From Fennellomyces sp. T-0311 (lineage: Eukaryota; Mucoromycota; Mucoromycetes; Mucorales; Lichtheimiaceae): a stretch of 64,000 bases of DNA. The stretch is taken from contig JALLLT010000018.1 in assembly GCA_025266875.1 (NCBI GenBank), positions 62,001 through 126,000 of the forward strand. The letters are read 5' to 3'. A program made the position numbers and the translations under genes. Shown piece by piece: positions 549-24,069 of the stretch. Below the pieces are notes generated by a model, which worked only from the letters and a program-made list of their open reading frames with translations, was not told where the DNA came from and searched no databases. The first letter of the stretch is position 1; every line of letters starts with the position of its first letter.

Positions 549-3500
549 ATGGCGTCTTCGCCATCGATTATATGGTCTCCCCATCCCGATTCCAACAAAT
601 TCCTTGTGGGCGGAACGGAGCTCAAGCTTTACGAATGGATTCCAGCGGTAAATTGCGATTCGAACAAAGACAACCAATTTATGCATTGCTGTTTATTCCC
701 TGTAGACTTCCGACACGCCAGGCAGTGCCCACTTTTTGCTATCTAACATACCCAAAATTGTGGTCATGGTACAGAGGGCAGAAGCAAACAGTTGCATTAT
801 CTCTAACAGTTGATTTAGTGCGCTGATTGGTCTCCAGACCCATATCAGCGTGATTTGATCGCGATTGGACTTATTACGGGCAAAACACTGCTTGTTCGTA
901 TGCAAAGTGATATCATGGACTCACCCTATCCATCATCCACCGACGGGATCAACTCGCCCACGCCATTGTACCGAAACCCGAGCCGCAGCAGCACGAAACA
1001 ACCACCAACACTTGGTGTTAAAATGTCAAGACCTTGCAACGTCGTATCGTTTTCCCAAACCCATCCACATTTGTTGGCGTGCGGTTTGGATAAGGTTCGA
1101 AATGATCCTTGTCTCCTTGTTTGGGATGTGTCTCAAGCAATTGACGGTGATACACCGACCGGAACAACTCCAAGCACACCCCATTTGACAGGTTTGCGAT
1201 TGATCTATAGATTTTTTCTGATACGAAATGGGAGGAGTGATTGTTTACTTATTGGATGTGTATGGTTTAGGTACTTTCGATTTGGATGAATGGAATGGGG
1301 TGTTTACGTTCTTACAACGGGGTAGATCGCAAGTTCAACAGTTTGGGAATGGATAGTTCGGTACCTTATCCATCATCCGCGTAAGTTCTTGGCTGTTTCT
1401 AGTGGATAGTGTTGTTTAAGAGGTTACATAGGTATCGCGAGCAACGCCCCATCTTACAATATGGCTCGTCCGAAGCAATCACTTCTTGTACTTGGTCAGC
1501 GCATGCGGGGTCCCCACTGTTGATTGCCGGCATGGGATACAAGTATCTGAGAGTATATGACATTCGAGGTGCACTGGTTTTTAGTCGAAAAGAAAAAATC
1601 TAATATGGAATTCTCTCCTATAGCTGATGCGAATGCGGCCCCGCTCCAGTTCTCAACAAAAGCAGTATATGGCACATCGATCGATCCGTTCAACCCGTAT
1701 CGGATGGCGTCATATAACGAAGAAGGCGTGATCAAACTATGGGATCTTCGAAAAACCAATGATTCAATATCCTTTTTCTATATCAGTTGATTGATGTTTC
1801 TGCGTTGACATAACATGTCCTTAACCAGATAGTTTACGTTCTAACGTTGAATTCAGAAAGTAGCACAAAGCATGCACTTTCGAAAATTGCATTTTCACCA
1901 ACAAGACCCGGACTATTGGCTTCAGTATCCAAAGATACACCGATCGTCAATCTATGGGATATCCAGGAAACGAGTATACTACAAAACGCAGTTCCTCCAA
2001 CGTCCTACGGCAGTGAAACTTCCAGCGGACTCAGGGCCATCACTGGGTTCGCATCCTCAGAGCCAACTGATAATACGCCACATATCCCAGGATCATCAAG
2101 TGTTCCAGTATTGTGGAGAAGTCGTGAATGTGAGCCGTCTCATTATTACATTCGTGCGTCCGCTGATACAAGCTCGTTTAGCTGCACCAAGTTCCAAACC
2201 GATCACCACGTTTGGATTTATACCTCGTATGGCGGATGACGGATCGGTACCAAGTCTCCTGACTATGCATAGAGATGGACAATTCGAATCGATTGATTTG
2301 GAAGAAGCTTCCAAGATGACTTGGCAACCGACTGGCGGCATCATGGCAACGAATGGGACCGAGTTGTTGAGTTGTGGTGGTTACCCTGCCGTTCGAAGGT
2401 TTCCGGAATTATCCCGACTTCATATATCGGATGTTCGGTAAATATTTTTGTTAAGTTACAGTATATGTTATACTAACTGTTTGTAATAGTTCGCAAACTG
2501 ACACATACGAGATGGAGGAATGTGTTCCTGCAGAGATTAGAGGAAATGTCATTGATAGCCTTGGGAATGATATCTCCGTTGTTATGCGAAAACGTGTCAA
2601 GATGGGATACTCTATGGAGGTAAAAATGTTAGAAAGTGTAAGTTGATTGCGGCTGTACTGATAAGAGTAATAGTATCAGAAGAATCTAAGCATAACACGG
2701 GATGATCACAAGCTGCATGAATTATGGGCCTGGTTGCAAAGTAGTCGTCTTTTTTATTTCTTAACTTTCATCGCTGATATAGCGTTTTAAATAGAGGCGG
2801 ATGAACTAACCAAGTCGGGAAGAGCCGACTATACAAACCAAGGCGTGTACTTTATTTGGAAAGGCTTAGGTAAATGACCAGTTGTTCGTAGAAGACATGA
2901 AAGTTGATAGTGAATGGTTAGCAAAAGGCAGTACATCTCCCCAAAGCCGGAAATCATCTATGAGTACCAAAGGAGTGATGCGAGAGACGCCTCCAGATTA
3001 CGGATCACCAAAGAAGACATTGGAAAGGCTATCAGCCAAAGAGATACCTGAAGATGATGACGATATGCTTGGTATGGTATCTACAACAAAACGTATACAG
3101 CGAGACCTTGCGTTGAAGATGTGTGGATTCGATTATACCAAGAGTGAGCTGGAACAGGAGCTTATTCGGTAACCCTAACTGTATAGAAGCTAGAGACCAT
3201 GCGATTAACTCAGTGTGACAGACTCGAGTCCATTGGTGAATACGATCAAGCCGCAGGATGGGCATTTTTCTGTGGGCTGACGGATCGCGCAATCCAAGCA
3301 CTTGGAAGCGTCCGTGGGACCGGTGAAGATGGTAGGCTATTTCTTAAAAGGCTAGGATCCGGTACTGATAAATCTGTTTAGATCAACAAAGAAAACTGAT
3401 GTCAGCTGTGCTGGCAGGCTTTCAACCCGGATCAGCGGATGTAAACCCTACTTGGCGCCAACTATGCGAATCACTCAGCCAAGATATGATTGATCGGCCA

Positions 3501-6055: not shown

Positions 6056-7062
6056 ATGTCCTTACGATTGTCAACACGTCCATTAGCTTTACGTTCAATC
6101 CTTACTGCACGATGTTATACCACACAACCAGATAATAGTGAGCCTTATTTGCTGTCTTTTTATTCACAAATGGAGCTGATGATCGGTTGCAAGGTGCACC
6201 AAAAAAGTTGTACGATACGCACATTCCAATTCCATTGCGGCAGCGTGCTCTTTTAGCTGCCGGTTCAGCTTTTACGGCTCTTTTGGACCCTCTACGTGGA
6301 GGTAAAATGTAACGTATGTAACATTGACCGATAATTAAACAATTCGATATAGATATGGTCGCTGCGCTAGGTGAAACGACAGGCACATTTGCACTGAAAC
6401 GAATGCGCGATCAAATGCTTCAAACCGAAAGCGGACGGCAAATATTACGCGAACGACCTATCATCAATACCACTACCGTCGATTTCCCTATGCTACGCGA
6501 AACATGTAAACCAGGCACCTTTGGACACCTTTATGTATCTTGGCTCGATACGGAAGGTGTTACCCCAGACACGCGTGAACCGGTATATATCGACGCCCAT
6601 GGCACGAGAAACAAAGTTAACGTAGCAAGGGGTTTTAGGTCCACTTTATTGATGATGAGGAACTGGCGTATGTGATGCAACGGTATCGACAATGCCACGA
6701 TTTCTATCACGCATTGACGGGGTTGGGAGTGTCGGTCGAAGAAGAGCTGGCATTGAAGTGGTTCGAGTGGGCACAGACGGGGTTACCAATGACGGCGATG
6801 GCATCCATTTTTGGGCCCATTATGCGAACTCAAGCTACTCGCAAGCGCATGTTCGATATCTATGTGCCTTGGGCTGTGTATACTGGAAAGTAAGTTGCGT
6901 GAAATACGGTGGCGGTGTCCTTGCTTAAATCAGGTTTGTGCTAGATCGTCGGTTCCGCTTATTTCGGTCTACTTTGAAAAGCACTTTCACAGACAACTGG
7001 ATGAACTACGCAGCGAGCTTGGCATCACGCTCCCGCCACATGTCCCAGATTCATTGAAATAG
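6056..7062 (+). CDS. COQ4: Ubiquinone biosynthesis protein COQ4, mitochondrial
   Basis: Five exons (6056-6137, 6194-6301, 6353-6582, 6639-6889, 6945-7062) give 262 residues, the normal length for COQ4. The N-terminus (MSLRLSTRPLALRSILTARC) is Arg/Leu/Ser-rich like a mitochondrial presequence. The core holds LLAAGSAFTALLDPLRGDM and VAALGETTG, then the zinc motif HDFYHALTGLGVSVEEE, fitting HDxxHx(11)E. COQ4 belongs to the coenzyme Q synthesis complex on the matrix side of the inner membrane and has been linked to head-group C1 decarboxylation/hydroxylation. It begins 59 bp after RTC4 and ends 75 bp before the stop of the minus-strand gene at 7138, so the two transcripts must converge closely. 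Confidence 0.95.
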
Positions 7063-9404: not shown

Positions 9405-9648
9405 TGAAGTCGAAATCTGGGAAAGCCCAAAATATTGGGTGCAAAAAGTGCTCATTAATAGGGCTTCCTCGTGATGTCATTTTTGTACGTTAAGACTGCG
9501 ATTTTCGTGTTCCAGACACGCCTAGCTTTCGTTTGACCTACATTTCGTTGCATACAATGGCATCACTCAAGCGCGCATTACAAAAAATGAATGGACTTCA
9601 TTTATTATCGCTCATCGATACATAAGTGAGCACAGAAGGCCCTGAAAC

Positions 9649-9760
9649 ATGAATATCGACGACTCCCTGCGCGCAGTGTTGCAGGACCTCTTTGGCAATG
9701 GTGACACGACGGCGGGAAGAATCATGACCCTTTCTAATGACATGAATTTGCCAGATGAAA
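9649..9760 (+). CDS. Possible small exon upstream of the transposase relic
   Basis: An open stretch from ATG 9649 encodes MNIDDSLRAVLQDLFGNGDT and about 17 further residues, and ends at a good donor (GTAAGT). The matching acceptor before 9833 would put the following transposase frame out by one base. It may be the decayed N-terminal part of the transposase or an unrelated exon. Confidence 0.2.
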
Positions 9761-9833
9761 GTAAGTAGCTAGGTCGCCTGGGGAAAGTACTCTCGGATGA
9801 GTATGTCAATGAAATTCAAAATTTCATTGTAGA

Positions 9834-10415
9834 ATGAACCAAGACTGGTCAGCCAGCCACAGTAACGCGTATCCACATGCACCTCGAAGATCAAAGGATT
9901 TAGAGCTTGCTGAGCTTCATTATGGGACGGAAAAAAAACAAAACATTCTTCATGACAGCGAAACCATCGTCAAGTACAGGAAAACCTATCTGGAAAGACG
10001 CTTGAGCAATTTGAATCCTGATGAACCGCCTATCCAACCGGAAGCATTTCTTGATGAGTCGTACTATCACTTAGACCATCACGCCAGACGGGCGTATTAT
10101 GTCCCAGACATTGTCGTCAACCAAACTGGGCATAAGCCTATGTTGGTAATATTTGGTGCCTTTACAGTTTATAAGGAGAACAACGGTCCCAGGGCTGAGC
10201 TAGTTGAAGAAAATACAACTATCTGGCCAGTTAAAGGCAAAGCCCAATGTCCAAGAAGAAGAGAATGTCGGTATGAAGCGCGCATCGACTGTACCTCCTC
10301 TTTCTTGCAGTGCATTCGACTGACCTCTTTGTGGAAAAAGACAGTCATTCAATGCAAATATTATTATGGCGAGCATCAGCCAAACGCTGTCCATTCTGTG
10401 GCAGTTGTTGAATAA
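9834..10415 (+). pseudogene. Truncated DDE transposase (IS630/Tc1-mariner-like superfamily endonuclease)
   Basis: A 193-codon frame from ATG 9834. The middle resembles the DDE superfamily endonuclease of fungal IS630/Tc1-like elements: AFLDESYYHLDHHARRAYYV holds the Asp-Glu-Ser block around the second catalytic Asp, followed by HKPMLVIFGAFTVYKENN and TTIWPVKGKAQCPRRR. The N-terminal DNA-binding helix-turn-helix region, the first catalytic Asp and the C-terminal Asp/Glu block are not visible, so this is an inactive fragment or part of an element with further exons. It sits directly upstream of the five-copy gene array. Confidence 0.7.
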
Positions 10416-10653
10416 GATGATGGTTCTCTTGAAACTATAAACTAATGCAAGGTTGGTACCCAACCTCCGAAAAAATCTTAAAAAAAATTAACTAACCGAT
10501 TTTGTTTTACTAGCGACCAAGCATGCATAGCAGAGCAGATGCTTTTAAAAACCAAATGATAGGATCATCTAGTCGCCTGGCTATCAAATATTTTTTGTTC
10601 CATGTAAAATGGCTGTGATCCCATGGAGATGTAAGCGATCAAACTTTGTATAC

Positions 10654-12676
10654 AGGTTTCCGGCCGGATGTTAATGACAAAAAAAGTAGCACAAAATTCC
10701 CATGCACCCGCAGTAATCCCTTTAGCCCGAAGCAATTTGTAAAAGAAAACTTCGCTACTGGCCCTGTGGCCTTTTTCCAAGCAGGTAGGTACATTGCAAG
10801 TGCGCAAACGGCAGCGACCGTGTTGTACCGAAACGTTGTGACGAAAATCGCGAACGATGGCAACTACCCCGATGCCTAGGGCTGGGCGAAGGAGGTCCTC
10901 GAATATGATTTTATTGTACGTATGGTTAAAGTTCGATCGGAAACTGCGAGGTAACATTACATGGCGTAGATTTTGTTGACGGAAGATGTTCAGGAGCACT
11001 GGCTGCGGGCTTCCCAAAGCAACCGTGTATCCAGTGAATTCCAAATGAACAATCATTTTGCTGTCGACTTTGCGCAAAACCAGAGCTCCTCCTCCTCCTC
11101 TCCCGCGAGGCAGGGGTACCAGCGTAAGTCTACTCTTCTGTGTCAAACACTGTATAATACTTAGCAAAAATCCAGGATGTTAAGATTACACTTACAGCAG
11201 AAGCAACCGATGGCATCATCCTATGAGATGGTGGCAATTCGGCTGGTTATATAATCAAGAGCGAAGCAGCGCACCGGTACTATGACTACCATTCGTCCAA
11301 TCCTGCTGAGAAGAACATAATCTTGTATGTTGAACAGTGATAAAAAATTATATCCAGGAATAATTTGTTATTTGACACATTTACTTATAGTCTCGGCATC
11401 AATGGGATCCTTGACTTGGGGAACGACAAGACTAATGGCCAAATACCGCTTTTCGAAAAGGAAGAATGGGGAAGGCTTTTGGAGCTTTTCCCCACTCCAA
11501 ACCTTGATGAGCATTATATTGTCAAGGACGATCAATTTATAAAATACTCTACGCAAATCGAACAGGTATCGTAGATTGAAAAATATATATATATTAATGA
11601 AGTGGCATACTGACGGATATCTATAGATCTTCTACCAGAAAAAGTACAGTTTTGCTGTATTTAGGGCAGCGCAATGCGACTACCAAAGCGATGCCGATGT
11701 TCCAAAGCTTGCCGCCTTTACTGGGATTTGTATGTTCTACCCTAGCTTTCGAAAGGTCGTTTATGTCGTTAACGTACTCTTCAGCATCAATGTCTAGAAT
11801 ATCACAAGTATGCGCTTGTTCCTAGTGGTCCTGCACTCAGTGAAGCCGACTATATTGTGGGGTAACCTGCTTGAAACTGTATTTCGAGACTCCAGTCTCC
11901 GATGTGCCTGGTATGAGAACAAGTACATTGACTAGCAAGTACATCAAGATTAACAGAGAGTATTTAGAGGGAGAAACACAATACATTGCTGCCCAGGCAA
12001 CAAACAATACTACGGTCATCAAGACAGATTTGAGGATAATTGACAACAACGTATGCGAATACTCCACCGGAGAGTTTGCTCTGTCTCTCCCAGAAGCAGT
12101 GAAAATATCCACTGATCGGAATAAACTGCTGATTGAGGGAAAGTTCATGCTTAACCGAATCGTTGGAGATGGATTGAAAGCAGTTTTACCTTTCCATGTT
12201 GCAGGTATGCTTTACTTTAAGTGTATATTCTTAATTTACAATGCTAACAAAAACAACAATAGGTTTGGAAGCAAAAGTAATTGCGTTGTCTCTTGTTGCA
12301 GATGGATTGTATGTGGGGCACACGGTCGCTCAAGTTGTGTTGCCGGTGCGCATAAGAGATTTTTAGTAGGATAAAGGAAGCCCTTATTTCTGTTCTGTTC
12401 CAGTATAGAGTAAGTTATCTATTCAGTCTTTACGAAGATACGCTTACCTCTTCCCATCTTCGCCGTTCCTAGGATTATATTGATACGTTATACGATGACC
12501 ACCGAGGCGCCGTGGAAAAGACGAAAAGGAACAAAAAGGGTTTATGGTGTGCAACAAATGATACGCCATCTTCAGAAGAGGCACAGCTACCAGATCCTGC
12601 ATGGGTCCGCGAGGGATGGATGTATCCGCGTGAGAACTCCCCTCTTCCTCCTCCACCTGCTTCCTTTATTTCATAA
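10654..12676 (+). pseudogene. Copy A of an unrecognised tandem gene family (decayed)
   Basis: First of five head-to-tail copies of one multi-exon gene. Exons read FSPKQFVKENFATGPVAFF, LTEDVQEHWLRASQ, LGINGILDLGNDKTNGQI, YHKYALVPSGPALSEADY, KTDLRIIDNNVCEYSTGEFA with DRNKLLIEGK, then the conserved tail WVREGWMYPRENSPLPPPPA and stop at 12674-12676. Introns of about 50-60 nt match those in copy C. It is broken: in-frame TAG at 10877-10879 where copy C has CAG and copy E has CAA, TGA at 11224-11226 where copy E has CGA, and a short deletion near 11,858 that shifts the frame before the WGNLLETVF block. I recognise no named domain. A His/Lys/Glu pattern (D-R-I, GE-A, K--IEGK) faintly recalls a nuclease fold, which is speculation. 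Confidence 0.65.
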
Positions 12677-13329
12677 ACTACCGCTCCTTGTAAGTAGCAT
12701 CGCAGTACGCCTACACTCAACGGTACAGTAACATATTCAATAGCCTCAATTTATAAATAGCTCATCTTCACTTCTCGTATTTTTTTTATTTGTTCTGATT
12801 TTTAATCTGTGACATAACATCTCTATTTTCGCGCTGCTCTGAGAAGTTATTGTTCCCTTTATGGTACCACTTTTACTGATGCAAACGATTTATTATTTAA
12901 ATTAAAAAATCGACCAGCTGGCATCATATCATTCATACCATTGTCTTGTTCGATATATTGTGTGTGCATAGAGGTTGATAGCATGATTCGCAACTTGAGG
13001 CTTTTCATGGTCGTTGATCGTTTGAATGTGCGAATCCTCTTGGTTTCCATGCTGACAACAGGAGCGGCCCTTACTTCAAATCAGTTGGTGTCCCATGCTT
13101 TTCTTTTTCTTCTTGAAAATACGCTCGTCCTCCTTCCTCAATCAAACAAGCACCATCCGATCGAAAACCTTTACAAGTGCACATGATTGTTTACGATCCA
13201 ACACGCTCGCATGATCCTACGCTCCTAATCTTTCATTTGTTTTGCACCGAGGTAATATAGAGTATACTACAAGCCTGTTCCAAACCTTGTTTAAGAGGCT
13301 TTTGTATTATTGTGTCTCATTCAATATAA
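12677..13329. other. Spacer between array copies A and B
   Basis: No gene seen. The stretch around 13,125-13,170 (a TCCTCCTTCCTCAATCAAAC-like sequence) resembles one at about 18,555-18,590 downstream of copy C, so the duplicated unit may include 3' flanking DNA. Confidence 0.35.
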
Positions 13330-14115
13330 TTGGGGCAGCCTAAATCAGCTCGCAATGGACGAGGCAGCTTTGACTCTGGAAGGTGTTGCATGTTGGCCTC
13401 GTTACAAGCCTCCATATCACTTGTACTCCACGTTGATCTGGGAAACAACGAACTTGATTGCCCTATGTTGCTTTTCCATGCCAGAACTTACCGACTATCG
13501 CAACTAGTTCTCTCCGAATGCTAAGCAGATCGGACTGGTATTGTAGATTGCCCTATAGGTATTATAGATTAATGAAATGACATGCTGACGGATATATGCT
13601 CTTAGGATTTCACAAGAAGTACTAATCTCATATGGTGCTTACAGAAGCACGATGTGAATAAGAAAGCGAAGGAAACGTTGCCGCAGATTACCGGCTGTAT
13701 TGGGATTTGTAAGTGCTCTAGCGAAAGCTTGCTTATATATGTCGCCAGTGTACTTTTCAGCCTTAGCATCTGCCAACATCTGTCAATATCACCAGTATAC
13801 GCTTATTCCTAGCAGTGCTCCTCCCTCAGCAAGGCTGATTATACGTATTGTGAACGTGCGAGAAAATCTTGGTGAAACTGTGTTTTGAGACTCGGGTCTC
13901 CACTGCGCCTGGTATGGAATGCAGTATATTGAGTGGCAAGTGGCATGAAGGTTAACAGATTTTTAAGAGGCGAGCCGCGAGACGCATTGCACGCTGCCAA
14001 TGCTACGGACAGTACGACGGTTATCACGACGGAGTATGTATCATGTCATTGGCCGGCATGTCGATCAAGAGTACTCTACTGTAGAATTCTCTCGTTACCT
14101 GCAAGCGGTTGTTGA
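13330..14115 (+). pseudogene. Copy B of the tandem family (heavily decayed fragment)
   Basis: Only the middle third is recognisable. The stretch near 13,430-13,500 reads LHVDLGNNELDCPMLLFHA, matching the ILDLGN block of copies A and C. The sequence at 13,680-13,730 matches the exon end and donor before the SALxYH block, and 13,865-13,930 matches the LLETVFRDSSLRCAWY block at the nucleotide level. Numerous frame changes exclude a working product. N-terminal exons and the WVRE tail were not found. Confidence 0.55.
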
Positions 14116-15143
14116 AGTATTAACAGCTCGAACAAACGTACTCTATTCGGGATAAATGTTTAATAACAATGCTGGAAATGAAGCGATGCGCCATGCTGTT
14201 GGTGAATAGCAGTAGACGAATTGACCTACAATGTTTTTCGTATATTTGCTTGTTCTGCTTTTTTGAATGCCATCTACGTAGACACTTTACAAATGCCTAA
14301 GCGACAAAAAAGCGACTCAAAGCACACCCCTGCTTTATGCTCACCGCAAGCACAAAGGCCCGCTAAATGGTCCTCCACTGATGCTTGTGTGCACGTTTGT
14401 CGCTTGTCCAACCCTGAAGAGGGGGGGTGGAATGTGCCTTGGAACCCAGCTAGTCTCCGGTACGACTAGTAACAAGCGGTGTGCATACACAAACACATGA
14501 GAAAATGTAGGTTAGGCTTCCTTGGAACAGATTCGAGCTTGGTACAGCTGGGCAAACTTGTGAACCGTTTCATGGCTACGAGTTGACAAAGCATTACATC
14601 TTGTATGACCTTGCTATTGTGTTGTCATGGTAACGTCTCTATTATACTATATTAGCAACTTAGAAGGAAGGAAGGAAAAACCACACCAGCAATTACTAGC
14701 AACGATCTGTAGCAATTCGTTGAATTTGGAATTGATAAACTGATAAAATGGACCTTGATTTGTGAAACCAAAGCGCCAGTATTTCTTACCGGTGTGCTTT
14801 TTGCCAAACAAAATGCCATAGTGAAAATGAATGAGCTTGACACAAATAGGGACACTGCGGAATTGCGAAATGGTCTGGTTGCGGCTTGCCTCACCTGAAG
14901 ACGCGAATCGATAAAAAAGGAATAGTCTCTATGTACCTTTTAAGGAAAATAAACACAGCCCGAAATACCTGGTATCGAGCAGAAGATCGAGGTACCATCA
15001 TAGAGATTTTGCTGTCTGACATTTGCTTCTCTTTCATTCAAAGGGTAAGTTAGCCGGGAATGACTTTACTTTTCGCAGCTTTCCCTCTGTGAAAGTTCAA
15101 TTGCTCAGGTCCGTCACGCCTTCTTTTCGTCCACTGGTCATGT
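14116..15143. other. Intergenic region within the array
   Basis: No convincing gene. Short open frames on both strands (for example 14,652-14,894 minus) lack family resemblance. The region separates the decayed copy B from the MITE at 15,144. Confidence 0.4.
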
Positions 15144-15304
15144 CACTGCAAATAATTTCGATGGTTAAAAGTGGTTACAGCGGTTAAACATAAGCTTTTT
15201 AACCATTTATACTACCACTTTTAGCAACTCAAGCGGTTAAAAAGCTTATGTTTAACCACGTCAAAAAATCATTCACCAAAATTTACCAAAAATTATTTGC
15301 AGTG
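15144..15304. mobile_element. 161-bp palindromic MITE, copy 1
   Basis: Ends CACTGCAAATAATTT and, inverted, AAATTATTTGCAGTG. The interior is a long imperfect palindrome: GTTAAACATAAGCTTTTTAA near the left and its inverse near 15,233-15,258, so the single strand could fold back almost end to end. A second copy of exactly the same length lies at 51,393-51,553. No coding frame. It looks like a fold-back/MITE family; target duplications are not clear. Confidence 0.8.
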
Positions 15305-15850
15305 CTGGAAACCGATAACTTCTTCACAGATTCTACAGTTGGAGATGTACGCGGCTCGAAACTACTCTCAAAGCCAGTATACGATTATAAGTAGAGAACT
15401 GTTATGTAGCGGTATAATAGCTGGGGGAGCCAACCGTAGCGATCACATCATCGGATCATTTATTCGGTCTTTTCCAACCACTCACGCGTGCATTATACGC
15501 ATGCCTATCTATGCTTCTAAATAACACGCATAAAAGTATACATTTTCAATCATATTTTATGAGCCATTGAGGATGTATCTTATAAGATGTAGGCTGGCGT
15601 TAAGTGTGCCGCTGCCGTCCATAGGGCACATATCTTCGAATTCTCCTGGTTACACAACAATGCATTGTTGCCTTCAACATCTGATGCACAGCAATGCTGA
15701 TGTAAAGCTACCATAAACTTTCATGATGTACCGCTGTTATGTACCATCACCTGTGCTAAGTATATAGTTGATATTCCAGTCTCTAGGCAAAATTGAGTTA
15801 AGTGATAAAGTTATCAATAACAGAGCATGGTGATTAAACGGATGTACCAC
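15305..15850. other. Intergenic region upstream of array copy C
   Basis: No gene seen. It probably contains the promoter of copy C, although its start codon was not settled. Confidence 0.35.
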
Positions 15851-15851
15851 C

Positions 15852-18037
15852 ATGCTTAACGCGCCTTTCCGAAAAGGGAAGAATACGAGGATAAAAGTTA
15901 CCACAGTACAGTTTATTCGCTGGTTCTTCCTTTTCCTTCCAGCTTATTTTCTGCACTATAGTTTCCTTTCGACATTCGCATATCACTTACACCATGATAA
16001 CGTAAATTTGCTACTCGTAATATTGGTGATCCCGCTTACGATACGTCTTCCGTAGTCATAAGTTTGACCCAGATACATTCTTGAGAGACAACTACAGTGC
16101 AGGACCAGTCGCGTTTTTTAAGGCTGGCGAATATACTGCTGGCGCCCAGAAGCTAGCCACAAATTTGTACAAGACCATCGTTGCCAAAATAGCTGATGAC
16201 GAAACTTATCCTGAAGCACAGACCTGGGCGAAAGATGTTCTTGATTATGACTTTATCGTAAGTAGCACCTGTGTATTACAATAAAATAGTTAACGCTGCA
16301 CGTCGCTAGGTTCTTCAAACGGAGGATGTCCAGGAGCACTGGCTAAAAACGTCTCAGAGAGACCGCATGTCGAACGAGCTTCGAATGCATAATACACACG
16401 CTACCAGTTTTGCTGAAGAGTACCCTGAGAACTCCTCAACCTTTCTACGTCAAAAGGATCCCACACAAGCATATAAAGTAAGTAGGGGAGCTGTTGTAAG
16501 GGTCAATCACAGTCAATTCTTTCAGAAAATTTACCTATCGACAATCTATTTAGGAAACTGAAGTCACATTAAAAGCAGAGTCAACAGATCGCGTATATGT
16601 TAATGACAGTTGCGATTCTGTGGGCTACACTATCAAGAAAGTAGCAGCAGAGCGGTACTATGTTTACCATACATCTGATACTTCTATAAAGGCTGTTATC
16701 TCGTAAGTTTTTCATAGGAATCATAAAGATGTAAAGCGGAACTAAAGTGATATCAACTTTTGCCATACTTATTACTCGTAGACTTGGAATTAACGGCATC
16801 CTCGATTTAGGCAACACAGAGGTGGATAGCCAACGATTGTACTTTGATGACAACGAGTGGGCGCGTCTTCTCGAAGCTTTCCCGCCGCCAGAGTGCCCAC
16901 AGCATTGTGTTGCTGATAACAATTTGTTCTTGGAATACGCAAAACAGATAGAGAAAGTAACGTGTATGAGCAGCATGAAATGGAAACAATGGTATTTAAT
17001 TATTGTAACTATAGGAGTGGTCACAAAAAAACTACAATCTTGTCCGGCTTATGGCGGCAAAGTTTGAGTATCAGAGCAAAGGAGACATAGCAACAGCCTG
17101 TCACTTATATCAAGACTAGAAAGTACATTAGATCTAACAAATAATCTTTTTGGCTAACATGTGTGATTTTATTTCTAGTATTAATTTCTGGCAGTATCAC
17201 GAGTACGCCCTGACTTCTAGTGGCCCTACTCTCAGCAAAATGGACTATATCATAAAGATCTGGGGAAACCTTTTGGAAACTGTCTTCCGGAGCTCAAGCC
17301 TTCGATGCACTTGGTAAGCAAGCGATGAAATTTAGCGAGCTGTATATAAACACTAATCAATCTCGCAGGGAGGAGGATCAAGTCGTTTCCCAAGGAGTGT
17401 CAGCATACAATACCACTTTCATCAAATCCGATTTTAGCATTCTGGATCAGAGTGGACAAAAATTTTCTGCAGGAGCGTTCGTCCACTCACTTCCCACCGA
17501 AATGAACGCTTCAGCTGACCGTATTAAGCTACTTATTGAAGGAAAGGGTATGCTAAATGGCATGGTCAAGAACGGCGTAAAAACAGTTTTTCTTTTGCTT
17601 GTTGTCGGTATGTACTTGATATGGTGCGATTCTTCTTGTTCCGTAATCTAATAGCATAATAGGAATTGAGGCAAAAGTGCTTTCTCTGTCTCTTGTAGCA
17701 GATGGCCTATACATCGCTCACGACGTCTGCAGGATTGTGCTCCCAAAAAGTATCGCAGGGCTACACAGACTAAAATCTGATATAATTCCTGCTCTTTTTC
17801 AGTATCGAGTATGCTTATCGGATATTTCGCATCATCAGTTATTCATTCATTGGTGTTTAGGACTTTGTACTCAAATGCCATGGTATAGTCCAAGACGTAG
17901 CTGAGGCAAACAAGAGTAATAACCCTAATGCCCGCCAGAAGAACTCGCTCACAATGGCAATGTGGGTACGGGAAACATGGATGTATCCTCGCGATAACAC
18001 CTATCTTCCTTCCCCACCTGCATTCTTTATTGAATGA
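15852..18037 (+). CDS. Copy C of the tandem family, best-preserved member, unknown function
   Basis: The most complete copy. Coding blocks in order: KFDPDTFLRDNYSAGPVAFF (from about 16,064), AQTWAKDVLDYDFI, TEDVQEHWLKTSQRDRM, a glycine/valine block with RYYVYHTS, LGINGILDLGNTEVDSQ, NEWARLLEAFPPPECP, QYHEYALTSSGPTLS, IWGNLLETVFRSSSLRCTW, FIKSDFSILDQSGQKFSAG, DRIKLLIEGKGMLNGMV, a hydrophobic stretch VKTVFLLLVVGIEAK, VADGLYIAHDVCRIVLPKS, then WVRETWMYPRDNTYLPSPPA and stop at 18,035-18,037. Exons are joined by 50-65-nt introns. One doubt: an in-frame TAG at 17,117-17,119 lies just before an intron where copies A and B read through, so it may be a nonsense mutation or a shifted donor. The N-terminal exon is uncertain; ATG 15,852 is a candidate. 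I recognise no named domain. Confidence 0.6.
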
Positions 18038-19030
18038 ACTTGCGGCACCCATACAGTAACTCGTTGTATATCTACATACGCTCTAACACTTACACTTTTT
18101 CTGCTTCTCAAATCTTGCTACGTATCGATTATAAAGCGAAAATCACATGTACGGTGTGTCTTGGCTTTTGTCGTTCCGATAAAAGCTTTCATTGGTGAAT
18201 TTGTGGCAGACATCATGTCACATAGCAGCGCTCGTGCTCGCAGAGTCGCTACCACATCTGTTCAATGTATTAAGTAGAGTGAAACAAAAGCAGTTTATAA
18301 CCTTTAGAGAAACGATATCAGTGTTCACATGGTCAATACATGGTATAGCGATCATTGAAATTATGGAGTTTACGGATGTTTGTTGGGCTTGTGAAGTGAC
18401 ATTTTCTCCCTCCAAATTCACAGACGAACATAGGCTTGTAGGGAGACATCGATGCTTAAAGGATGCAGATGGGTTCTGATGTGGCTTTGGGAGGGCATTT
18501 TATCGATTTCCCATGGATCACATAACGGGAACTTATGTATTCATAAACGTTTGAACTTCCTCCTTTCTCAATCAAGCAGGCAACCTCGGCGCAAAGAGTC
18601 ATAACTGAGCATGATCCACCGCGTTGTGCGATTTATGCCACAGAATCTTCCATCTGGTCTCACGCCGAGATAAAATGAATGCAATCCCATTTGAAGCCTT
18701 GCCTCGCAGCGATTTGTCAATTCAAAATCATTGCGTCACCATTACGTTCTCGATCAGTTCACAAAGAACACGCCAGCAGATTAGCTTTGATTCTGACAGA
18801 GGCTTTATGTGACCTATCAACGGCATTTGGGGTTTAGGAACCGATACAAATGATAGATATATGCCTTTTTCCGTAAGAGTGTGCATCAGTCCTTCCCGAT
18901 CAAGGACGGCTAGCCATTCCTCCAATGCTAGAGCAAGATCGAACGGTTGGCGTAGACCGTGCAATATAAAGTAGTGGCCGTGATATCGTGATGGATGTGT
19001 TTATTGAGGTTCCATGAAGCAATACCGCCT
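18038..19030. other. Spacer between array copies C and D
   Basis: No gene seen; open frames are short and lack ATG or family likeness. The sequence around 18,555-18,590 resembles the spacer after copy A. Confidence 0.35.
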
Positions 19031-19420
19031 TGCGGCACGACATGACATTGTCCCAGCTTTCTCTCTGCAATGGAATCTGTAAGTATATTGGCTTTCCGTT
19101 GGTCATCCATCCGACTAATTAGCGCTTTTAGAGTAAATGTCACAATATACTCTTGCTTCCGCGGTTGCTCTCTTTGCAAGGCCGAAGGGTCTGAAGTAAC
19201 CTGCTTGAAACAGTCTTTCGGGCGTCTGGTCTCCGGTGCCCACATGAATATGACGCGTACAAGGGATCAATTACCAAGACAGCGGCCTACCAGACCACCG
19301 GCAACAATGTATACGTTTGTCTTCCTCCAGAATTTGCTTACTTGCTTCTGGACGAAGTAAAAGCATCGACTGACAGAACTAAACTGCTGACCGAGGAGAA
19401 TTTACTTCTCTAAAGGATCC
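19031..19420 (+). pseudogene. Copy D of the tandem family (3' fragment)
   Basis: The sequence at 19,198-19,250 matches the LLETVFRxSSLRC block of copies A and C (read here as LKQSFGRLVSGAH in a shifted frame). Bases 19,255-19,412 match the block around GEFA and DRxKLL (STDRTKLLTEEN). Frame changes and loss of all other exons make it a relic. It directly precedes copy E. Confidence 0.5.
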
Positions 19421-19539
19421 TCAAAAGTTGATCGAAACGATCCTTTCTTTCATACATGTCCCAGACAAGCGTCTTTGTTTGGAGTTGACACTGTCATCTC
19501 GACGTACTTTCGCCCGTCTTCTAACACACTTTTACTGCT

Positions 19540-21484
19540 ACCTTAACGCAGATATACTGCTGTCGTATATTGCAAGTCCACACAGGCGGCGACGGAGATG
19601 TACAAGGGCGCTGTTACAAAAATTGAGGGTTACGAAGACTGCCCACTGGAAGCGCAAGGCTGGGGAAAAGAGGCTCTGCAGTCCAACGTCATCGTAAATA
19701 TGATTGAAGTATTATCAGAGAAGAGCCACATAACGCTACATACTTATAGATTCTGAAAACTGAAGACGTACAAGCGCATTGGCTAGGGTGTCCTAAGGCA
19801 ACTGTACATCAAATGAATTACAGATGTACAGTGTTCTCGCTGCTGCCCTTGTACAAACGCAAAGCTCCCCTTCCCCATTTCCTGCATCCCCACCCCTCAT
19901 AAGCATCCGCAAACCCCAGAAAAAAAACATAACAGGGATACAAATGTAGTCTGATCTTCAGTACCAAGCACTGTATAACACTGGCAGCAAGAATTCAGGA
20001 GACAAAGGTCCTTCTTACCACTGGAGCAACCGACGGCATCGTCCTACGAGACGGCAGCAAATAGATATGCTTTAATATCAAGAATGAAGCAACAAAACAC
20101 TTTATGATGGTCATTCTTGTAACCCTGCGGATAAGGGCATCATAACGTATGTTGAATGGTTATCCAAAAGGTGTATACAAGAGTGACTTGTCATTCGACA
20201 CACTTACATATTGCTTTGGCGTCAATGGGGTCCTTCATTTGGGCAACAATAAGCCGGAAACCCACATATTCCTTTTCCGAAAGGACGAGCGGAGCCAACT
20301 TCTGGAGATGGTGGCCGCCCCAAAACTCGCCTCCCATCAAGTTGCCAAGGACGATTTCTTGGGCATGTCCAGGAGAACGAACAGCTATTCATTGTAGATT
20401 AAGCAATGCATATAAATTAGTGAAGTGGTATACTTACCAATGTCTATAGGAATTTCACACGAAGAACTGCCCTTTTGCCGCGCTCACAGCAGCGTAATGC
20501 GAGCGCAAAAGCAAGTGTGATGATCCCACAGCGAGCTTGCCGCCTATACTGGAACTTATAAATAGTATTCTACTTTTCGGACGGTCGTTTATGTCGCAAA
20601 TGTACTTTTCAGTATCAATATTTGGCAATATCACAAGTATGCACTTGTTCCCAGTGGACCCTCGCTCAGTGAAAGGGTTTACATTGGAAACTATGAGGAA
20701 ATCTACTGGAAACTACATCCAGAAACTCGGGTCTTCGATGTACTTGGTTTGAAATGGAATACATTGAGTGGCAAGTGTATCATGATTAACAAATATTTAA
20801 GGGGTGAGACCCACTGCACTGCTGCCAAGGCTACTAATAGTGCCGCGGTTATCAAGACTGATTTGAGGATTGTTGACAGTAAGCCATAGGGAAACTCCAC
20901 CGGAGAGTTTGTTCAGACCTTCTTCGGAATCCAGTAAAGTGTCGACAGACCGAACAAAGCTCTTGATCAAGTGGAAGTTCTTGTTGAGCTGAATTATAAA
21001 CGATGGATCGAAAATGGCCTTGCTTTCCCATGTTGCCGGTATGCTTTTTTCGAGGAAACATGATCAATTTGCGATACTAAGAAAAACTTCAATAGGATTG
21101 GGGGCCAAAGTTATTTCATCGTTTATTGTTGTAAATGGACTGTATGTTGCGCACACAGTTCTCAAAATGGTGGCGCCGGTTTCCATGCAGAAGTTCAAGA
21201 CGATCAAAGAGGTTTTGACTCCTAGGTTGTTCGAATATCGTGTACGTTTATTATGCTCAGTATATACAAGGATATGCTTTCAAAAATCCCGTGCCTTGGT
21301 GACCATCAAGGTAGCGCTGAAGCGGCGAAAAGAAAACAAGAAGGGCACATGGCGAGCAACAAGTGATAAATCATCAGCAGAAGAAACAGCCCTGCCACAA
21401 ATAATATGCTGGGTCCGCGAAGGATGGGTGTATTCGCACCAGAGCTCCTGGATCCCTCCCCTATCTTTACTCTTTAGACAATGA
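19540..21484 (+). pseudogene. Copy E of the tandem family (decayed but nearly full length)
   Basis: Begins with a frame-shifted counterpart of the YIASAQTAATVLY block (19,563-19,690), then TEDVQAHWLGCPKAT, TTGATDGIVLRDG, FGVNGVLHLGNNKPETHI, a LLEMVAAPKL block, KTDLRIVDS with STGEFV, DRTKLLIKWK, GAKVISSFIVVNGLYVAHTV and the tail WVREGWVYSHQSS. TAG at 20,888-20,890 and further stops and shifts interrupt it. The end at 21,482-21,484 follows the same tail motif as copies A and C. As the last member it marks the array's downstream limit. Confidence 0.6.
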
Positions 21485-22291
21485 GTCCCCCATACGAATA
21501 AAAAGACGATTATAGTAGCAGATCAAAACTTATATTTAGAGTTGAATTATGTAATCCATAAAGTATGACTCGTACCGCTGCGATCATTCGAATAAAATAT
21601 AGCTATTTTCTACTCTTGTTGAATAGATTATGCGTACATGAAAGCTGATGGTGTTGCCACACAAGTGTGGGCTTTCGGGTAACCGTTTGTCGACTTTTGA
21701 AGGCGATAGTCCTATTCAATGTGCCTGGTGCTCCATTTCCATGCATTTACGGCAAGAAGCAGACTTTACCGTAAATAGGAGCATTACTGTTTGCGCTGCC
21801 CTACTTATATAATAAGTGGGGCTCGGCAATTGAGTTTCAAGCGTGAAGGGTGGTGTTAATTATTGTTAGTCAAAGTCATAGAAGCAGCTGACGACAATGG
21901 AAGCTGATGAAGCTCATGTTGGAACTACTTGATAGTCGAATTCAATGGTAATAAGTTACCTAAACTTTTACATTTGGTTCATTTGTGGAATAGGATAGAA
22001 GGGCAACTAGTAGCACCGCCAAGAGAGGGGCTGTTAGCAAATTAGTTTTATACTGTGATTGCAATAGTACACAAGACCGCTCGATCATGCTTTTATCAAG
22101 TTCCGTTCACACTGAATTGCAAGCTATTTAAAACTATACACAACCACCGAATCTGAGGCCGCACGAAGTACACTCCCTTGGCAGTACCCAGTGCAGTATA
22201 GAGAACTTGTGCATGGAATCTTGCGCGCACTGCATTTTTGCTCGATTTTTGAAATCCAGCTGCATAATCTTTTTCTCTTTGCACACTTTTC
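21485..22291. other. Intergenic region, no gene seen
   Basis: AT-rich. It contains no open frame of note and presumably the promoter of the DUF155 gene that starts at 22,292. Confidence 0.4.
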
Positions 22292-24069
22292 ATGAAAAAA
22301 AAAGCCGAGAGCGATTCTCGTCCACCATCGGCCATCTCGCGAGAGGTGTTAAAGCCTAGTGCACAATCCTCGGCACAAGCAGAAAGCAGTAAAAGTACCG
22401 GCCATGACATTAATAAACGACCCGATCCACCTCGACCCAAAAGTACACAGCCCTTGCGAAGTAGCAAGATTTCTCAAAAACTCGTCTTGTTTCCCCCACG
22501 ATCTATTGAATCATCAGCAGCTGTTCTCGATAATGCCCTTCCACTGCCAGCCATACAAGATTTATCGCATCAAAAAGACCAGCAGGCGTGGACTCCTCAA
22601 GAATGGACAGAAGATCACCAGCCCACCACGCCTGGTGTAGAGATCCCAGCTACTTCATTAGGGTGCAGAACGGAAGCAGAACACATGACTCAGGATGAAC
22701 GTGATTTGGCGAATCTTTCTCGAGTTACAGCGTATTGCACTGGTGAAGGTTACGCGCTGAGTCGACTACGCCAGTTTTTGCGGCAGCACCATCGGGTCAC
22801 GCCGAGGCTTTACGATGAATGTCTTTATGCAGCATACCACTATCCACTGCATACCATGCGGCCTGGCAAGGAAAACCTGCATAATGTTAGGGTGCGCAGC
22901 GCGTCGCCACGTGCGAACAGCTTGTCGGACGAGGGCGAGATGGATTATGACGAGGATACGTACGAACGGAACGGCATAGAGGCGATTGGATCCCATCTAC
23001 GTGCTCATGACAGGGATGATTGCCACGAGTTTAGCCGTCGAATGACATCCATTTCGGCACCAGCTTCGCCAGTAAAAGACGACGATGTGATCCACCGACC
23101 GATAACACTGACTCCAGCTCCACCGCAACGACGGGATTCGTTGTTTACGGGCGGCGAGGTTTTTCTGTTTGATTATGGCGTGGTGGTGTTTTGGAATTTC
23201 AACCGGGCACAAGAGCTTTTGATGCTCGAGGACTTTGCGCAGTTTTCCATCCGCCCGTTCCGCGACAATCCCGACGAGGAGATGCAGATCGAGGAGATGC
23301 ACTTTCAATACGATGTTTCGCAAGTCAAGCCGCGTATCTTTAACGACATGATTACACTCAAGAGCAGCAATCACATGGTCAAGCTGACGTTGTCGCATGG
23401 CCTTTCACAGAGCGCGGTTCTGGCGCGCTATGAGGATATCATGGATAAAACAATCGAGGTAAACGGTTAGGAGGCGCTGGGAAGAAGCGTGCTTATGGAT
23501 GCGCCTACAGGATACCAAGCATCTACCCAAAGAAATGGCACAGACCGGACGCCTCGTGAAGAATCGAACGGAAATCACAAAGGTCAACGGCCAGCTGTTT
23601 AACTTGCGCATGAACGTCAACCTAGTCTCCAATGTTCTTGGTACGTGGCCGTGTCCTGATGATTGCTGCTGGATAGCTGATTCTGTTACAGATACGCCGG
23701 AAATCTTTTGGTCTGAGCCCGCGCTTCAGCCGATGTACAATGCCATCCGAGGTAAGCAAGGCTTATCGTGCACACTGTATGCGAGGCTCACCGTTATCGT
23801 GCAGACTATCTGGAAATTCCCCAACGCGCAAAGATTCTGAACGATCGGCTCAAAGTCATCTCAGATCTGCTCTCCATGCTCAGAGACCACCTCACCAACT
23901 TTGGCGTGGAATATCAGACCCTGATTATTATTTACCTCATCATCATCGCCGTCATTGTCGCTTGCGTAAGTTGCCTGGAAAATTGGATGGACGGGTGGAT
24001 GGCTAACGTGGACTGCTGTACTAGTTCGAAATCGCTGTTAAAGTACTACAGACCATGCGGGTCATCTAG
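22292..24069 (+). CDS. RMD1/RMND1-family (DUF155) membrane protein, RMD8/Sif2-like
   Basis: Five exons (22,292-23,458; 23,511-23,640; 23,692-23,751; 23,805-23,965; 24,025-24,069) give 520 residues. A disordered Ser/Pro-rich N-terminal half is followed by the DUF155 core: RVTAYCTGEGYALSRLRQFL, then EVFLFDYGVVVFWNFNRAQE, IEDTKHLPKEMAQTGRL, LFNLRMNVNLVSNVLDTPEI, and RDYLEIPQRAKILNDRLKVI. It ends with one strongly hydrophobic helix (TLIIIYLIIIAVIVACFEIA) and a short tail. Family members include yeast Rmd1 and Rmd8, fission-yeast Sif2 and human mitochondrial RMND1. The long N-terminal region and C-terminal anchor resemble the Rmd8/Sif2 branch rather than the mitochondrial one, so an internal membrane location is more likely. 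An in-frame stop at 23,468 disappears once the 52-nt intron is removed. Confidence 0.9.

Follow-up and report, generated by a model that had tools for sequence, protein, structure and literature searches.

Layout of the tandem array

The window analyzed here is the whole stretch of 64,000 nucleotides that covers bases 62001-126000 of contig C90, in a genome of 45.6 Mb and 182 contigs. Protein matches identify its source as Fennellomyces sp. T-0311 (Lichtheimiaceae, Mucorales), which agrees with the Mucoromycota origin proposed in the original prediction, an earlier note on this DNA. Between window positions 10714 and 21484, five related segments (copies A to E) lie on one strand and form a tandem array composed of three long copies (A, C, and E) and two fragments (B and D). 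The encoded protein family, which public annotation leaves as "hypothetical protein", is the new part of the locus. The first readable exon of copy A begins at 10714; the start given earlier, 10654, falls in the right end of a DDE-type element that extends to 10673.

As a chance control, 100 dinucleotide shuffles were searched by tblastn with two family proteins, P0005 from contig C144 of the same genome and P0003 from Apophysomyces. These queries yielded 25 high-scoring segment pairs (HSPs) in window 9501-21999 and none in the shuffles, and no HSPs were found in window 22001-64000. The 25 HSPs are distributed over copies A, C, D, and E, and none falls in copy B, which is recognized by DNA similarity and by the copy C protein (P0001): self-blastn aligns 13521-14033 with 11549-12028 of copy A (66% identity over about 500 bases), blastn aligns 13481-13822 with a family member on contig C114, P0001 matches 13775-13963 (E 2.7e-5), and an exon-4 remnant is visible by eye among the open reading frames. 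Through these matches, the proposed five-copy, same-strand tandem array is upheld.

The same exon order had been claimed for all copies, and it holds for the three long ones: copy A (10714..12676, plus strand), with exons 1-9 recognizable; copy C (15994..18037, plus strand), with every exon present; and copy E (19589..21484, plus strand), with a partial exon 1 and recognizable exons 2-9. It does not hold for copy B (13432..14033, plus strand), a decayed fragment of about exons 4-7 with repeats D1, D2, D3, D8, and D9, or for copy D (19186..19422, plus strand), a fragment of about 240 bases that contains only the LLETVF and TDRTKLL blocks. Likewise, among the blocks thought to be common to all copies, LLETVF recurs in all five segments on the same strand (DNA repeats at 11862, 13863, 17265, 19196, and 20698), whereas the C-terminal WVRE tail occurs just three times, in copies A, C, and E.

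State of the individual copies

The copies in the array are mostly dead, and their lesions are those of decay. Copy A, annotated as the hypothetical protein BJV82DRAFT_578856 (P0002, 328 amino acids), is interrupted by in-frame stops (exons 1 and 3) and frame breaks (exons 6 and 8); it lacks the tiny ATG exon found in other members, and its public model begins at an internal ATG in exon 2. Copy E carries several stops, located in several exons, and also changes frame. Copy C, annotated as the hypothetical protein BJV82DRAFT_611465 (P0001, 473 amino acids), is the best preserved, as originally predicted, but its near-intactness depends on an unusual splice: it is open through all exons only with the public splice map, in which a candidate GA-AG intron (window 17119-17179), a rare splice type, is removed after exon 5. 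The donor of this intron is GA (GAAAGTAC at 17119), while both C144 copies have GT there, and when the intron is retained the frame hits a TAG ahead of the protein core. The P0001 model also skips the WVRE exon by continuing into the last intron, and these splice features would be compatible with a transcript-based model. The core itself, encoded by exons 7-8 (17370..17808, plus strand), reads IKSDFS..SAGAF..ADRIKLLIEGK followed by strands, with the conserved acid replaced by alanine (GAF, not GEF).

Family members beyond the array

Paralogs within the genome were sought by six-frame searches, extended with P0005 and the relatives on C79, C139, and C102 as queries. The family proved not to be restricted to the array: there are two copies on C144, opposed fragments on C114, and more divergent places, giving 21 separate places when clusters are merged, several of which (C138, C123, C113, and C150) were counted on matches of E 1e-5 to 1e-3 alone. 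The first C144 copy (C144a, encoding P0005) looks intact, with every traced exon open from ATG to stop; its protein has 512 residues in the public model and 517 in our splice model. The second (C144b) keeps the exon plan. A multi-exon plan with a tiny ATG exon is common to copy C, C144a, and C144b, and, apart from the missing ATG exon of copy A, the plan is shared wherever it was traced (A, C, C144a, and C144b).

With a profile built from five close members, 9 of 13 divergent loci exceeded 12.0 bits, the highest score among 30 residue shuffles; one further locus tied at that value, and C144b reached 38.8. In a separate profile search, P0003 was retrieved at E 2e-119. Three places, on C113, C121, and C1 (L042, L047, and L060), were not among the 15 profile matches listed. 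The match on C121 fell outside the profiled core. The C113 place may be a false member, as the open frames inspected there contain no D-E-K stretch of the kind described below and it is absent from the listed profile matches. A divergent relative on C79 (L038:1749-3113; C79:124248-125612, minus strand) consists of a single open frame of 455 amino acids and is possibly a better subject for structural work than the array copies. On C114 (L015, C114:82500-91500), the two opposed family fragments are flanked by an inverted repeated stretch (approximately 3160-3340 and 6160-6400 of the locus, by eye), as if a single copy had been split and then inverted.

Protein searches covered 5.8 billion sequences and reached relatives with common five-residue words, the last of them scoring the best 7995 candidates. 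The named proteins BJV82DRAFT_718396 (P0005), BJV82DRAFT_611465 (P0001), BJV82DRAFT_578856 (P0002), BJV82DRAFT_716438 (P0004), and BJV82DRAFT_672488 (P0006) of Fennellomyces sp. T-0311 belong to the same family, as does DFQ28_001050 (P0003) of Apophysomyces sp. BC1034, whose public model lacks the N-terminal part; all six are unnamed hypothetical proteins, and P0005 is the one whose locus was traced open from ATG to stop. Outside Fennellomyces, these word-based searches returned a single Apophysomyces protein, with three member sequences, and an unnamed fragment of 105 amino acids. In viral and prokaryotic collections, P0003 produced 5 and 38 pattern stretches, respectively, none of which encodes a relative. 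D-E-K proteins of this kind are probably widespread in other Mucorales. No description of the family was found in the literature at the level of titles and abstract openings, and no paper turned up that names both Fennellomyces and strain T-0311.

Divergence, selection, and turnover

Over aligned exon sites, which vary from pair to pair, the difference is 29.8% between copy A and the C114 copy, 33.6% between A and E, and 41.2% between A and C. Copy A thus has a closer relative in the dispersed C114 copy than in copy C, so at least two lineages are present in the array, and a simple local series of duplications does not account for it. Within this genome and counted in the frame of copy A, differences peak at third codon positions in all ten copy pairs and are significantly uneven (P < 0.05) in eight of them; the counts at positions 1/2/3 are 173/137/284 for A-C, 95/82/191 for A-C114, and 131/110/169 for A-E, with exceptions for B-C (52/49/70, P 0.10) and B-E (46/45/55, P 0.54). 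Because the frame of copy A is broken in exons 6 and 8, the third-position excess is, if anything, understated. Judged from these codon-position counts, the family protein was under purifying selection before its copies decayed, and the rapid selection suggested earlier finds no support. The proposed birth-and-death pattern, by contrast, is well supported, with one best-preserved copy standing among decayed ones.

Protein core and possible function

In agreement with the original prediction, which could name no domain, no Pfam family reached the cut-off and only sub-threshold matches were obtained. The C-terminal core nevertheless follows a recognizable pattern, K-x-D-L-R ... E ... D-x-x-K ... 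K. In 7 chosen core rows, a subset of 13 that leaves out C144b, C114, P0007, C68, C98, and C138, there is no variation at either residue of K-x-D or of D-x-x-K or at the later K, and six rows have E, copy C having A instead; over all 13 rows, E occurs in 10. In P0005, a probably helical N-terminal half and a linker precede this core. In an AlphaFold model of P0005, a helix (370-387) is followed by strands (391-398, 401-411, and 414-424). We take the order of the core motifs, with hydrophobic strands after the K-bearing helix, to resemble PD-(D/E)XK nuclease-like domains. A cluster of basic residues in the linker of five of the seven members inspected hints at a nuclear location. On these grounds we regard the array, with moderate confidence, as a tandem cluster in which most copies are dead, from a divergent Mucorales family subject to birth-and-death turnover, whose core is most likely of the PD-(D/E)XK nuclease-like type.

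Several observations weigh against this assignment. Beyond the missing Pfam match, PHROG gave one weak match (E 0.061), no PDB sequence fell below E 0.05, and no fold search produced a match in the PDB at E <= 0.001. The two AlphaFold models are of poor quality (mean predicted local distance difference test, pLDDT, of 37.8 and 46.8), and the second (46.8) has no strands over the D/E stretch. Where E-x-K would be usual, the core has E-x-x-K/R. Copy C, C144b, and C98 have no E. In addition, C98 is without the later K and C138 without the K of D-x-x-K, and the D of C144b is retained in just one of two alignments. The basic cluster of the linker is absent in copies A and C.

In a non-enzymatic alternative, the genes form an ordinary fast-evolving family, for example of scaffold or recognition proteins, and the D-E-K pattern is structural. 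The absence of any domain match above cut-off would fit such a protein, as would the loss of E in copy C and C144b though other core positions are kept. Against it, K-x-D, D-x-x-K, and the later K belong to the positions still conserved in the most divergent members, and most core rows retain E. We consider this alternative possible but less likely.

A second alternative, that the proteins are secreted Crinkler-type effectors with a restriction-endonuclease-like C-terminus, appears very unlikely. Crinkler C-termini often carry domains of the restriction endonuclease superfamily, and links to transposons are described (PMC5289972). For P0001, P0003, and P0005, however, no Pfam Crinkler match was obtained up to E 10, and by eye neither an LFLAK-like motif nor a hydrophobic signal stretch is seen in P0001 or P0005. 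Fennellomyces is not a known plant pathogen, which also counts against effectors of this type.

Mobile elements near the array

The transposase-type relic reported beside the array is present and is multi-copy in the genome. It is a decayed DDE-type element of about 1.25 kb (9428..10673, plus strand), delimited by blastn against four other copies; the DDE label comes from the original prediction and our own reading of the frame, and the relic had no match in Pfam. A query of 9560-10480 gave 60 matching pieces at 40 or more places, its own included (40 scored of 57 candidates). Blastn detected terminal inverted repeats in two of the five copies compared (L053 and L070); the window copy showed none, although its right end still matches the other copies. 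The copy at C90:139687 shares 99% identity with the relic over 9560-10480 and 95.7% over a longer alignment, a likeness that may reflect recent movement or conversion. Elsewhere, two opposed copies about 4 kb apart (C117:626414-627258 and C117:631501-632345) have identical scores and possibly represent an inverted duplication.

The element ends 40 bases before the first readable exon of copy A, and its right end sits where the ATG exon of copy A would be expected from the spacing in copy C, C144a, and C144b; the element has therefore probably deleted or divided the beginning of copy A. Family members on C104 and C68, too, have DDE copies upstream on the same strand. The reading of the family genes as accessory or cargo of this element is very unlikely. 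Its copies lie no more than 2 kb upstream on the same strand at 3 of the 21 listed family places (the array, C104, and C68:802k), with a binomial P of 9e-7 to 3e-6, or of 1e-4 to 2e-3 on the assumption that it favors gene-upstream DNA five- to tenfold, in a post hoc test on two lists that are not exhaustive. The other 18 places, however, show none among the DDE places listed, 3 of the 40 listed DDE places adjoin a listed family place (by eye), and the family gene lies outside the element at all three places read. At these places the DDE element does not carry the family genes, and a mobile-element association in this sense is not borne out.

Of the two miniature inverted-repeat transposable elements (MITEs) reported beside the array, one was recovered. 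A MITE-like repeat lies between copies B and C (15144..15300, no strand assigned) and contains an internal palindrome (inverted repeat at 15182-15257); a query of 15100-15300, where the search ended so that the right end may extend further, found at least 40 places, counting its own, that match at 91-100% identity (40 scored of 213 candidates). The right flank of the array (21500-22100) matched itself alone in the genome search, and no second MITE was found there. Adjoining the array, an open frame at window 22268-23470 (plus strand) encodes an RMND1/Sif2-Sif3/Mrx10 (DUF155) domain (E 1.2e-25).

A model for the family

Under the preferred interpretation of a nuclease-like family in birth-and-death turnover, the core would bind or cut nucleic acid in the cells of the fungus itself, possibly directed at mobile DNA or serving as a toxin-like or conflict protein; we infer this role, the nuclease fold, and the nuclear location from residue patterns and models. 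Copies would arise in tandem and on other contigs, selection on the protein would keep them for a time, and decay would follow, with transposon insertion as one route, as copy A suggests. An extended version, which we consider unlikely, would make the array a graveyard of Mucorales-specific nuclear PD-(D/E)XK-like nucleases engaged in a conflict with mobile DNA that drives turnover, with the DDE element tending to insert upstream and copies such as C, having lost the acidic residue, becoming catalytically dead decoys or regulators.

The D-E-K core gives an unnamed family, wider than its array, a testable biochemical idea. At this locus, tandem gain, dispersal, past selection, and decay next to transposons can be followed clearly in a fungal order that has been little studied. 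Should the nuclease reading be true, the purpose of such an expanded family of intracellular nucleases in these fungi would become a question of its own.

Comparison with known systems

The PD-(D/E)XK (restriction-endonuclease-like) superfamily, whose core fold is alpha-beta-beta-beta-alpha-beta, resembles the present family in the order of its motifs (a D, an E, and a K-bearing helix followed by strands), the strands being taken here partly from a poor model; it differs in having E-x-K where the family has E-x-x-K/R, and no significant profile or fold match connects the two. Crinklers with CR-REase domains, such as RiCRN1 of Rhizophagus (PMC6131194), are comparable as a eukaryotic family expanded in certain lineages, whose C-terminus has been proposed from its sequence to be nuclease-like. 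They differ from the present family, in which no header or secretion signal was seen and which shows no sequence match to them. Lichtheimia is a genus of the same fungal family as Fennellomyces. Tandem duplication is common in Lichtheimia corymbifera, for which 701 genes in smaller tandems are reported, those named including MFS, HET, and P450 genes (PMC4133162). The tandem habit seen here is alike, and since L. corymbifera also has many tandem duplicates, the behavior of the Fennellomyces genome at this locus is ordinary.

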